Positions 3,130 through 7,013 of a stretch of 64,000 nucleotides of DNA are shown here, in pieces; within the stretch, counting starts at the first letter, position 1, and the number at the start of each line of letters is the position of its first letter. Location of the stretch: assembly GCF_000144625.1 (NCBI RefSeq), contig NC_014376.1:124001-188000 (forward strand), read 5' to 3'. The notes under the pieces were generated by a model. That model did no database searches. It saw only the letters and a program-made list of their open reading frames with translations, and had not been told where the DNA came from. Source of the stretch: [Clostridium] saccharolyticum WM1. Lineage in GTDB: Bacteria > Bacillota > Clostridia > Lachnospirales > Lachnospiraceae. The position numbers and the translations under genes were made by a program.

Positions 3130-4509
3130 ATGTATCAAATTCATTTTCATAAACCAGAGGCAATTCATTTTATTGGAATAGGCGGAATTAGCATGAGCGG
3201 ACTGGCGGAAATTCTCATTGACGAGGGATTTACCGTGACAGGGTCAGATTCCCATGAATCAGAGCTGACTCGCCATTTGGAGGCAAAGGGTGCGGCCATT
3301 GCATATGGCCAGAGAGCGGAGAATATTAAAGAAGGAATTGATGTGGTTGTTTATACGGCCGCAGTCCATCCGGATAACCCGGAATATGCAGAAGCAAAGG
3401 AAAAGGGACTTCCCATATTAAGCCGTGCGGAGCTCCTTGGACAGATGATGAAAAATTATGAGAACTCCATAGCGGTATCAGGAACCCACGGTAAGACCAC
3501 GACTACCTCTATGATAACGGAGATTCTTCTGGCAGCCGAAGCGGACCCTACCATATCAGTGGGCGGGATTTTAAATTCCATAGGCGGAAATATCCGTGTG
3601 GGAGGTCCCGGACTTTTTGTAACGGAAGCCTGTGAATATACCAACAGCTTTCTTTCCTTTTTTCCCACCATGGAGGTGATCCTGAACATAGAGGCGGATC
3701 ATCTTGATTTCTTTAAAGATATTAAGGATATCCGACATTCCTTCCGTCTTTTTGCCGAAAAACTTCCCCCAAACGGATCACTGGTAATCAACAATGACAT
3801 TGAAAGCAGAGAGGAAATCACTGAGGGACTGCCATGCCAGGTGATCACCTATGGGAAGAAGCCGGGGAGCCGGTATCAGGCCGAAGCCATACGCTTTGAT
3901 GAATACGCAAGGGCTACCTATGATTTAAAGTTGGACGGAAATGTTGTGGATACCGTAACACTTGGCGTTCCGGGAGAGCATAATGTGTATAATTCCCTGG
4001 CAGCAGCGGCCGTATGTACAGAACTGGGTATTGAATTTGATTTGATTAAGAAGGGGCTGAAGCGTTTCACCGGCACCAATCGTCGTTTTGAAAAGAAGGG
4101 AGAGCTGTCGGGGGTTACCATCATTGATGATTATGCCCACCATCCACAGGAAATCCGGGCGACCCTGGAGACGGCGAAGCATTATCCCCACAATAAGCTT
4201 TGGGTGGCATTCCAGCCCCATACCTATACAAGGACTAAGGCGTTTCTGGAGGAATTTGCAGATGCCCTGTCACTGGCAGATGAGGTGATCCTGGCAGATA
4301 TTTATGCAGCCCGTGAGACAGATGATTTAGGCATCAGCTCCGGGGATATTGCGGAAAGAATCGGGAAAAGAGGGGTAAAAGCCCACTATTTTTCATCCTT
4401 TGATGAGATTGAAACTTTTATTTTAGAAAATTGTATACACGGTGATTTGTTGATAACTATGGGGGCCGGAGACATTGTAAAAGTGGGAGAGAAGCTTTTA
4501 GGCTTATAG
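3130..4509 (+). CDS. murC: UDP-N-acetylmuramate--L-alanine ligase
   Basis: The 459-residue protein is a full-length MurC, the cytoplasmic Mur ligase that adds L-alanine to UDP-MurNAc using ATP in peptidoglycan precursor synthesis. The N-terminal Rossmann part carries HFIGIGGISMSGLAE (about 13-27), the Mur-ligase P-loop is GTHGKTTTT (118-126), and the central domain contains EACEYTNSF and NIEADHLD. The C-terminal domain has DDYAHHP and the VAFQPHTYTRT stretch. A TATAAT at 3031-3036 is a likely -10 element, though the -35 is weak. The gene ends in a terminator whose stem contains one of a pair of DnaA boxes. Confidence 0.97.
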   Translation: MYQIHFHKPEAIHFIGIGGISMSGLAEILIDEGFTVTGSDSHESELTRHLEAKGAAIAYGQRAENIKEGIDVVVYTAAVHPDNPEYAEAKEKGLPILSRAELLGQMMKNYENSIAVSGTHGKTTTTSMITEILLAAEADPTISVGGILNSIGGNIRVGGPGLFVTEACEYTNSFLSFFPTMEVILNIEADHLDFFKDIKDIRHSFRLFAEKLPPNGSLVINNDIESREEITEGLPCQVITYGKKPGSRYQAEAIRFDEYARATYDLKLDGNVVDTVTLGVPGEHNVYNSLAAAAVCTELGIEFDLIKKGLKRFTGTNRRFEKKGELSGVTIIDDYAHHPQEIRATLETAKHYPHNKLWVAFQPHTYTRTKAFLEEFADALSLADEVILADIYAARETDDLGISSGDIAERIGKRGVKAHYFSSFDEIETFILENCIHGDLLITMGAGDIVKVGEKLLGL

Positions 4510-4708
4510 TTATCCACATTATCCACATAGTTTTCAACATTTTATGTTAAGAAACTATGTGGATTTTTTAATTTACATAATTTATAGTCTTACAATTTAA
4601 AAAATCTAGGTTTTATCAGCAAATCGACATGATTCGAAGAAGAAATTCTATTTATGTATACCTGGTTTCCACATTATCCACATTATCCACAATTCATTTA
4701 GTGGATAA
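4510..4708. promoter_or_regulatory. DnaA-box cluster (two tandem pairs)
   Basis: Four exact TTATCCACA boxes occur as two head-to-tail pairs with no gap: 4510-4518 plus 4519-4527, and 4674-4682 plus 4683-4691. A variant GTTTCCACA lies at 4665-4673, in phase with the second pair, and an inverted TTATCCACT at 4700-4708. The roughly 135 bases between the pairs are very AT-rich. TTATCCACA is the canonical high-affinity DnaA site. The cluster is upstream of a DnaD-like protein and a helicase loader, so DnaA control of that operon, DnaA titration or an origin-like role are all possible; which one is not decidable from sequence. Confidence 0.75.
4521..4572 (+). terminator. murC terminator overlapping a DnaA box
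   Basis: A perfect 13-base stem pairs ATCCACATAGTTT (4521-4533) with its complement at 4552-4564. A second stem AACAT/ATGTT lies inside the loop, and T residues follow at once. The left arm uses most of the second TTATCCACA box (4519-4527). Confidence 0.75.
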
Positions 4709-4924
4709 CTGGGGCTATTTTCTTTTGATGAGACCTGTGGTATGATATTCATGAAGACAAAGAGCAGTGCAAAACAGGACACGGCTAAATTTTTCGTTGT
4801 GCTTGCACTTAAGAAAATCCGGCCATGCCCTGTTTCACAAATGGAATGCCCGTGAGTGAGAGAAGCCACAGGCTTTACCCGCTGTACGGCGGGCTGGCGA
4901 TATAAAAAAGGTGAGGTTAAGGCA

Positions 4925-5962
4925 TTGAAAATAAAGAGCAGTTTCAAGATCAGCGCTACAGTGATTTCCAATGAGTTCATTGATGAATATATGGCTGCGG
5001 CCAATGGGGAGTACATAAAGGAATATATATATTTGATGCGCCATGAAGGGGAAGAAATCACCGTTTCTATGATTGCGGATGCGTTAAACCATACGGAAGC
5101 GGATGTAACACGGGCCTTATCTTACTGGAAGAATGCCGGGGTCCTTAAAGAGAGCGTCCCGCTAAAACAGACGGAGTCCCCTGCGGTATCCGAGACGGCC
5201 TGTTCCGGAATTGGCAGGGAGGAGCAAAAGAAGCCGGAGGCAGGAGGCCGCCGGATGGTCTATCCGCCTGAGAAAATAAGCGGACTTGCGGGAGATGAAG
5301 ATTTTTCCCAGCTCCTTTATATTGCTCAGAAATATATGAATAAGGTATTCACCCAGCGGGAGTGTGAGGTTTTCGCTTATCTTTATGACGGCCTTCACAT
5401 GTCGGCCGAGCTGTTGGAGTTTGTGGTGGAATACTGCGTACAGGGCGGCCACAGCAGCATCCGTTATATTGAAACAGTGGCTATCAGTTGGCATGAAAAA
5501 GGATTTCGCACCGTAGAGGATGCCAAGAGCTATGCCCTTACCTTTACAAAGGATTCCTTTGCCGTCATGAAGGCTTTTGGATTAAATGACAGGAAACCAG
5601 GAGATATGGAGAGGGATCTTATAGAACGATGGTTCCGAAACTATGGATTTACCAGGGATCTTGTGGTTGAAGCCTGCAACCGGACCCTAGCTGCTACCCA
5701 CACCCCCAGCTTCCAATATGCGGACAAAATCCTGGAGGGCTGGAAAAAATCCGGAGTGCGTTCCATGGAGGAGGTCAGAAAGCTGGATGAACAGTATGCC
5801 GGCCGTATGAAGAGTGGAGATAATAAGGCGGGAAAAAGCGGAGAATACAAACAGACCCAGGCCCCTAAGGGGAGAAGGGGACAGAACCAGTTTCAGAATT
5901 TCCCTCAAAGGGAGATTGATTATGATGCCCTTGTTTTAAGGCAGCTGACAGAACAGAAGTAG
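4925..5962 (+). CDS. DnaD-domain replication initiation protein
   Basis: The protein (345 residues from this start) resembles DnaD/DnaB-type primosome proteins that remodel DnaA-bound origin DNA and recruit the helicase loader. The N-terminal part (about 1-70) fits a winged helix and starts with SSFKISATVISNEFIDEYM. Two C-terminal DnaD-type helical units follow, one with FTQRECEVFAYLYDGL and HSSIRYIETVAISWHEKG, the other with IERWFRNYGFTRDLVVEAC and FQYADKILEGWK. A longer frame opens at 4856, but a TTG at 4925 is 8 bases after AGGTGAGG and gives the usual family N-terminus. It is followed 55 bases later by the helicase-loader gene. The leader of about 180 bases from the DnaA boxes is unusually long. 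Confidence 0.88.
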   Translation: MKIKSSFKISATVISNEFIDEYMAAANGEYIKEYIYLMRHEGEEITVSMIADALNHTEADVTRALSYWKNAGVLKESVPLKQTESPAVSETACSGIGREEQKKPEAGGRRMVYPPEKISGLAGDEDFSQLLYIAQKYMNKVFTQRECEVFAYLYDGLHMSAELLEFVVEYCVQGGHSSIRYIETVAISWHEKGFRTVEDAKSYALTFTKDSFAVMKAFGLNDRKPGDMERDLIERWFRNYGFTRDLVVEACNRTLAATHTPSFQYADKILEGWKKSGVRSMEEVRKLDEQYAGRMKSGDNKAGKSGEYKQTQAPKGRRGQNQFQNFPQREIDYDALVLRQLTEQK

Positions 5963-6017: not shown

Positions 6018-7013
6018 ATGGCGCTGAGCAATTCGCAGTACGATGCCATTATGCGGGCATATGGACAGCAACAGTTTAAGAACCGCCATGAACAGGAAAA
6101 GAGGATTGAGGAAGTATACCGGAAGATACCGGTTATAAAAGAGCTGGATGATTTCATCAGCACCAGTGCAGTAGCCAGTGCACGAAGGCTTCTTGAAGGG
6201 GACAGGGGTGCTCTTAAGGACCTTCGGAATGAAATCGCAGACTTGAGAGAACAGAAGGGCGTGCTTTTAAAGGCTGCCGGCTTTTCCGCGGATTATATGG
6301 AGATGCGGTACCGATGCCAGGATTGTAAGGATACCGGATACTCAGATGGGACAAAGTGCCATTGTTTCCGCCAGTTTGAAATGAAATATCTATATGCCCA
6401 GTCAAACATTGAACAAATCATTGCGGTGGAAAATTTTAATAATTTTTCTTATGAATATTTTGATCATACCAGAGTTGTTCCGGTTCTTAACCGAACCGTC
6501 AGACAGTATATGGAGCAGGTGGTGGAGACCTGCCAGTGCTTTGTAAGGGGATTTTCTGCAGAGCATGGGAATCTGCTGTTTACAGGCCCTACGGGAGTTG
6601 GTAAGACATTCTTAACCAACTGCATTGCAAAGGAATTGATTGACCGGTATTACTCCGTCATTTACTTATCAGCCAATGACCTGTTTGAGGTCTTTTCCAA
6701 GAACCGGTTTGATTACCAGGATGAAGAAGATATGAAAGGGATGTATCAGTATATACTGGATTGTGACCTTTTAATCATTGATGATTTGGGAACGGAACTG
6801 AATAACAGCTTTACATCCTCAGAATTGTTTTACTGCATCAATGAACGGCTTAATTCTTCCAAATCAACCATCATTTCCACCAATCATCCCATCAATGAGC
6901 TGAGAGACCGGTATACGGAGCGTGTCACCTCCAGGCTCATCAGCCGTTATACGGTGATTCCCCTTTACGGAGATGACATCCGCATCAGAAAAAAAGAAAA
7001 GCGTGTGAACTAG
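6018..7013 (+). CDS. DnaC/DnaI-type helicase loader ATPase
   Basis: This 331-residue AAA+ protein matches DnaI/DnaC loaders, which place the replicative helicase on DNA. An N-terminal coiled region (about 20-90) is followed by a zinc-binding CxxC...CxC cluster (RCQDCKDTG...KCHCF, cysteines near 100, 103, 114 and 116). The Walker A motif is GPTGVGKT (about 190-197) and Walker B is LLIIDDLGTE. The sensor STNHPINEL and arginine-finger region RLISRY follow. The start is the ATG 5 bases after GGAGG at 6008-6012. It forms an operon with the DnaD-like gene, as DnaB-DnaI do in Bacillus, which supports a role in replication rather than in a transposon. Confidence 0.93.
   Translation: MALSNSQYDAIMRAYGQQQFKNRHEQEKRIEEVYRKIPVIKELDDFISTSAVASARRLLEGDRGALKDLRNEIADLREQKGVLLKAAGFSADYMEMRYRCQDCKDTGYSDGTKCHCFRQFEMKYLYAQSNIEQIIAVENFNNFSYEYFDHTRVVPVLNRTVRQYMEQVVETCQCFVRGFSAEHGNLLFTGPTGVGKTFLTNCIAKELIDRYYSVIYLSANDLFEVFSKNRFDYQDEEDMKGMYQYILDCDLLIIDDLGTELNNSFTSSELFYCINERLNSSKSTIISTNHPINELRDRYTERVTSRLISRYTVIPLYGDDIRIRKKEKRVN

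Follow-up and report, generated by a model that had tools for sequence, protein, structure and literature searches.

A family-wide conserved DnaA-box cluster between murC and dnaD in Lachnospiraceae is a candidate control element of the helicase-loader operon

Introduction

The binding sites of the replication initiator DnaA gather near oriC in Escherichia coli (PMC12371093), and both oriC and its DnaA-trio have been described in Clostridioides difficile (PMC7561715). According to the accessible parts of the respective reports, several systems place such sites elsewhere on the chromosome. In Bacillus subtilis, DnaA activates sda, whose promoter region carries a multi-box array outside oriC (PMC4447404), and the DnaA-box clusters (DBCs) of the same species are dense, intergenic and likewise outside oriC (PMC5295017). 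The E. coli loci datA, DARS1 and DARS2 are non-coding DnaA-box clusters outside oriC that tune DnaA. Double DnaA boxes serve as a bound unit in E. coli (PMC11317965), and in Caulobacter the DnaA regulon includes dnaB, a gene of the helicase step with predicted DnaA boxes upstream (PMC8203912).

Here, we describe a dense cluster of this kind outside oriC, with four exact DnaA boxes within 182 bp, which fills the murC-dnaD intergenic region about 128 kb away from dnaA and precedes the genes for DnaD and the helicase loader. A literature search that covered few subscription papers did not return any account of a dnaD or dnaC promoter with DnaA boxes, and the sole match for Lachnospiraceae together with DnaA box concerned a Psychrobacter plasmid.

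Results

The murC-dnaD intergenic region is filled by DnaA boxes

The window, a stretch of 64,000 nucleotides from the chromosome of [Clostridium] saccharolyticum WM1, contains murC (3130..4509, plus strand; open reading frame with a TIGR01082 match above cut-off), followed on the same strand by a DnaD-like gene (4925..5962; PF07261, TIGR01446 and a profile match to DnaD 8ojj), whose TTG start was assigned by comparison with relatives, and a gene for a DnaC/DnaI-like AAA+ ATPase, the helicase loader (6018..7013; PF01695, NF005304 and matches to DnaC and DnaI structures). Among named relatives, those nearest to the loader gene belong mostly to Lacrimispora, family Lachnospiraceae. The original prediction had placed the cluster directly upstream of these two genes, and the domain matches uphold both gene calls.

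The cluster is organized in two modules. Module 1 begins at position 4510, right after the murC stop codon that ends at 4509, and consists of box 1 (4510..4518) and box 2 (4519..4527), two exact copies of TTATCCACA on the plus strand found by motif scan and joined with zero gap. A weak box read off the sequence, TTTTCAACA, follows 3 bp past box 2 with two mismatches (4531..4539, plus strand), and several relatives carry a better box at the same offset (+21). Module 2 comprises box 3 (4674..4682) and box 4 (4683..4691), again exact TTATCCACA copies on the plus strand from the motif scan, with 9/9 and 7/9 columns invariant among close relatives, respectively. It is preceded by the weak direct box GTTTCCACA (4665..4673, plus strand, two mismatches; read off the sequence and compared with relatives), and the motif scan places an inverted box, TTATCCACT, on the minus strand at 4700..4708 (8/9 columns invariant). 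The predicted arrangement of four exact boxes as two zero-gap pairs, at 4510, 4519, 4674 and 4683, with two further near-matches of which one is inverted (the weak direct box at 4665 and TTATCCACT), was thus recovered in full. The DNA between the pairs is indeed A+T-rich (75% A+T vs 54% for the window), and its length is 146 bp rather than the predicted 135 or so, or 137 bp if measured to the weak box at 4665. It includes a poorly conserved A+T-rich spacer (4581..4664), with 28/80 columns invariant in 4581-4660.

Across the whole genome (4,662,871 bp) there are 85 exact boxes, vs 34 for the reversed control. From this genome-wide count, the Poisson expectation for four exact boxes in 182 bp is about 0.003, so the cluster is not a chance assembly. 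The genome holds three exact copies of the zero-gap 18-mer, two of them in the murC-dnaD region and one at position 686555. By hand count, the exact boxes are strand-biased by chromosome arm, with 30 on the minus and 9 on the plus strand below 2.2 Mb and 35 on the plus and 11 on the minus strand above it, and the four murC-dnaD boxes run counter to this bias. A further group at 419 kb has one box inside a 242-codon open reading frame and the others inside or beside that frame.

Box 2 is shared with the predicted murC terminator

Folding predicts an intrinsic terminator of murC at 4521..4570 on the plus strand, made up of a hairpin (4521-4564) and a T run. The RNA of 4505-4572 folds with -19.7 kcal/mol (z -4.84), and the ATCCACA of box 2 forms the 5' arm of the stem, as had been proposed when one box was described as built into the murC terminator. 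Within the family, an outer stem that starts from the box (TCCACA pairing with TGTGGA, followed by T-rich sequence) was found without a shuffle control in 46/68 regions of at least 60 bp, and a stricter earlier script counted a box-coded terminator stem in 43/68. In 45 of the 46 regions, at least three inner pairs lengthen the stem, and their sequence differs between genera. Since a stock terminator scan of the murC-dnaD region and a stock promoter scan of the same part of the window detected neither element, the predicted terminator and the dnaD promoter discussed below rest on folding and comparison. A box inside a terminator is an unusual double use of one sequence.

This overlap raises the question of whether the boxes have any DnaA function, or simply arise from A+T-rich sequence or from the terminator hairpin, given that box 2 is part of the stem. 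As a by-product of the stem they can be dismissed on two counts: module 2 lies in no significant hairpin (z -0.70), and the inner stem varies between genera while the box part stays. Together with the shuffles reported below, these observations already refute an absence of function as the account of the conservation, and we give it practically no weight.

Directly after the terminator, the plus-strand element TTTACATAA (4572..4580) is invariant in 9/9 columns over 16 rows. It recurs at a nearly fixed place, +52 to +74 from the first box, in 29/54 long regions of the family with up to one mismatch. Upstream of dnaA, both the own genome (L005 3613) and 2/10 other family genomes (L169 810, L172 906) have the same element 11-12 bp ahead of a DnaA box. 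We rejected it as the site of a general factor, as its genome count of 125 is close to the reversed control of 104.

The cluster is conserved throughout Lachnospiraceae

Among close relatives (15 loci plus the window), 17/18 columns of module 1, 40/44 columns of the terminator stretch and all nine of TTTACATAA are invariant, and the distance from box 1 to box 3 is 164 or 165 bp in 15/15 loci. Between the dnaD -10 and the ribosome site, a stretch of about 140 bp (about 4750-4905) is common to the window and one relative (L014) and missing from the other 14, which gives the window a long dnaD leader.

To follow the region across the family, 120 genomes were drawn, of which 117 gave a DnaD match; regions were read in 70 of those, namely the 30 best-scoring including the own genome and 40 whose match reached near the N terminus, with 47 left out. 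Three more family regions came from a class search, giving 73 Lachnospiraceae genomes, one per genus. One genome without a DnaD match in the first search (G073) has a diverged murC-dnaD region with degenerate boxes and was excluded from all counts; in two others without a match (G020 and G033), neither murC nor dnaD was found.

Gene order is nearly constant, with murC directly before dnaD in 72/73 genera. The 72 regions hold 172 exact boxes, whereas 200 shuffles gave 0.40 on average and never more than 3, which rules out a chance origin. At least one exact box is present in 62/72 and at least two in 50/72, while at least two boxes with up to one mismatch occur in 65/72; the conserved boxes stand upstream of the predicted promoter described below. 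A zero-gap pair is found in 57/72 regions vs none in any shuffle, and the first box lies within 12 bp of the murC stop in 61/72. The conservation that the original prediction had made decisive is therefore present family-wide. Only five of the 72 regions are free of boxes, all merely 1-69 bp long, which supports the reading of the cluster as part of a DnaA-controlled promoter.

In the 54 regions of at least 180 bp, a further box follows 60-260 bp from the first in 52 and at 140-190 bp in 40, and neighbouring direct boxes are spaced by 0 bp 99 times and by 3 bp 15 times. Other genera have a short form in which two or three boxes are followed by the promoter and the A+T-rich stretch is missing. 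The single exception in gene order, G030, carries another open reading frame (membrane-protein-like by eye) between murC and dnaD. Here, three exact boxes stay directly after murC, and the 550 bp preceding dnaD have none. This layout, seen in one genome of 73, argues against strict promoter control.

Outside the family, the arrangement disappears. The class search covered 147 genomes with a DnaD match in 141, and 37 from outside Lachnospiraceae were read, mostly one per family. Two boxes within 500 bp before dnaD were found in 0/37 of these, and a single genome has an exact box; within the same distance, at least two boxes occur in 64/73 family genomes and an exact box in 59/73. The boxes are not tied to murC in general either, with no exact box within 500 bp after murC in the 22 non-family genomes with a recognised murC end, of which two have a single one-mismatch box and one has a contig that stops 78 bp after murC.

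The boxes stand upstream of a predicted dnaD promoter

Comparison with relatives predicts an extended -10 for dnaD (TGGTATGAT, 4738..4746, plus strand) with a poor -35 that matches in 3 of 6 positions. A poor -35 is usual for activated promoters. In 62 family regions, a -10-like hexamer, nearly always extended (TGn), lies downstream of a box, 32-178 bp (median 59) past the end of the last direct box. The upstream direct boxes stay clear of the -35 and -10 in all of these regions, and none comes closer than 32 bp to the predicted -10. The computed box centres would fall near -66, -76, -86 and -96, positions like those of class I activator sites.

This geometry bears on whether DnaA would activate or repress. 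In a repressing arrangement, DnaA filaments or a loop between the modules would hinder the dnaD-dnaC promoter and form a negative loop. The inverted box between module 2 and the promoter fits such an arrangement, and several B. subtilis targets of DnaA appear directly repressed in the accessible text of PMC4447404. Against it stand the clearance of the -35 and -10 in all 62 regions and the poor -35, as in activated promoters, and we regard repression as unlikely.

The distances from the last exact box to the -10 in long regions (n=40) group at 48-50, 58-59, 66-72, 77-79 and 87-94 bp. Their phasing has an R of 0.76 for a period of 10.0 bp and of 0.45 for 9 bp, the latter being the repeat length of the boxes. 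The strictest subset (n=20) gives an R of 0.82 for 10.1 bp and of 0.66 for 9 bp. The distances from the murC stop to the -10 and from the -10 to dnaD show no phasing (p 0.14 and 0.30). The distance from the first box to the -10 is also periodic, more weakly (R 0.56 at 11.0, p 0.001), so part of the signal may be shared descent, which these R-value tests ignore. A sister-pair control on the murC tree gave no phasing for the first box definition (p 0.41, 13 informative pairs). For exact boxes, it gave p 0.014, 0.016, 0.050 and 0.11 at 10, 10.2, 10.5 and 9 bp in long regions (16 informative pairs), and p 0.058, 0.050, 0.082 and 0.31 in all regions. The phasing was sought post hoc, after the distances had been seen, and the exact-box definition was set after outliers had been inspected. 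Short-class distances of 52-53 or 32 bp are in a different phase. Helical phasing of the boxes to the -10 is thus suggestive only, with the phylogenetic control backing part of it.

Further short elements occur in the family regions. Where box and -10 are about 69 bp apart, the gap contains a CCCTTGATTTTACTGGG-like element in many regions (e.g. L114, L115, L125, L133, L134 and L137). CCCTTGA is present in 8/54 long regions vs 1 expected. TTCGACA, which we take to resemble a Spo0A box, occurs in 11/54 vs 1.3 expected, in many cases +113 from the first box; the window lacks an exact copy and shows ATCGACA at that place.

A second cluster lies between hpf and secA

A second DnaA-box cluster with the same zero-gap pairs is located outside the window between two genes named hpf and secA by eye from their sequences (L006 2043-2458; G000:C1:686543-686965). 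A zero-gap pair upstream of hpf was found in 20 of the best-scoring 30 of 58 family loci, without a shuffle control, and in many genera the cluster keeps the same box layout 220-400 bp upstream of hpf. Across 35 family genomes, zero-gap pairs with up to one mismatch number 82 copies in 28 genomes, vs 3 for the reversed pattern; with 900 bp as the limit, 48 of them lie near dnaD, 18 near hpf and 16 elsewhere. The exact pairs are distributed as 28 near dnaD, 13 near hpf and 5 elsewhere.

The hpf-secA cluster argues against a control element at dnaD, as the same layout hundreds of bp from hpf fits a role that is not tied to a promoter. One such role would be titration, in which the boxes act as a high-affinity sink that holds DnaA off oriC, like the B. 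subtilis clusters, and the place before dnaD is secondary. The retention of three exact boxes at murC in G030, with none near dnaD, points the same way, as does the distance of the operon from dnaA given below, and deletion of six clusters in B. subtilis leads to early initiation according to the accessible text of PMC5295017. A sink needs no fixed neighbour, yet the cluster sits at one junction and always has dnaD downstream, only a few such places exist in the genome, and the possible phasing to the -10 also counts against sequestration. We therefore consider titration an alternative that is possible but on the unlikely side.

The cluster does not look like a replication origin

That the cluster is not a standard oriC, with dnaA outside the window, agrees with the position of dnaA at C1:433, about 128 kb off, where DnaA boxes are found on both its sides. 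GC skew was followed in full from 4 to 180 kb and as 20 kb samples over the rest. Apart from a single 8 kb step (28-36 kb), the values read are positive between 4 kb and 2.14 Mb, and beyond 2.26 Mb they are negative. The skew is thus positive on both sides of the cluster (128.6 kb), and the only sign changes fall in the interval from 2.14 to 2.26 Mb and at the dnaA end. In the seven genomes with both genes on one contig (14 searched), a distance of about 100-520 kb separates dnaC from dnaA.

An auxiliary or relic origin would use boxes around A+T-rich DNA as a site of DnaA unwinding and helicase loading. The two box modules do bracket the 75% A+T stretch, and TTTACATAA is common to the region upstream of the own dnaA. 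The boxes that flank dnaA and the sampled skew without a switch at the cluster speak against such a function. Furthermore, the DnaA-trio repeat (TAGTAGTA/TACTACTA) is found in 0/72 murC-dnaD regions of the family, though the own dnaA-dnaN region has TACTACTA; this is a thin positive control, with the repeat in just 1/10 other dnaA-upstream regions. The A+T-rich stretch is also poorly conserved and missing from the short class. The suggestion of an origin-like element was accordingly not borne out, and we consider an origin at this place highly improbable.

Discussion

The murC-dnaD cluster is most economically explained as a conserved element through which DnaA would control the helicase-loader operon. 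Among the three readings first offered (a DnaA-controlled promoter, a titrating cluster and an origin-like element), the promoter is the best supported, as the cluster is kept before the dnaD promoter family-wide with no upstream direct box closer than 32 bp to the predicted -10 in 62 regions. We judge it somewhat better than an even chance that the intergenic region is bound by DnaA and controls the dnaD-dnaC operon from upstream, and that its effect is probably activating.

In such an element, the zero-gap arrays would be bound cooperatively by DnaA. Module 2, upstream of a poor -35 and an extended -10, would most likely raise transcription via contact with RNA polymerase, and the supply of loader would then track free or ATP-bound DnaA. 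Module 1, with its fusion to the murC terminator, could keep transcription of murC from running into the promoter, and a single DnaA complex may span both modules. A more elaborate scheme would be a Lachnospiraceae feedback circuit, in which DnaA activates the DnaD and loader operon from helically phased arrays, the terminator-fused module acts as a DnaA-gated insulator about 165 bp upstream that loops to the promoter module, and the hpf-secA cluster is a second node. As a whole, this circuit is speculative and we hold it to be unlikely.

The placement of the boxes suggests that DnaA, the starter of chromosome copying, controls the supply of its own helpers. If true, the initiator would be linked, through its control of the DnaD and loader genes, to the step that immediately follows the opening of the origin. 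The conserved element offers a precise site to test in a non-model family, the Lachnospiraceae, whose members are abundant in the gut. As DnaD inhibits cooperative DnaA binding in B. subtilis, according to the accessible text of PMC5295017, DnaA control of dnaD would also close a feedback loop.

Among the known systems, the likeness to datA and DARS lies in the non-coding box clusters outside oriC. These E. coli loci, as far as their accessible descriptions go, act on the nucleotide state of DnaA, a feature of their own. A defined box core with IHF or Fis sites also marks them. The Caulobacter case concerns the helicase rather than its loader, and another phylum (PMC8203912, accessible text). 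The E. coli pairs are described with a spacing of 2-3 bp in the available part of PMC11317965, vs the 0 bp that prevails here. The B. subtilis regions named in the accessible text of PMC4447404 (sda, ywlC, vpr, yyzF-yydD, trmE-noc, ywcI-sacT and gcp-ydiF) include no helicase loader. The sda promoter region, likened here by description, has an unrelated target, whereas the murC-dnaD element is set apart by the helicase-loader operon as its target, by its zero-gap boxes and by a box embedded in a terminator.
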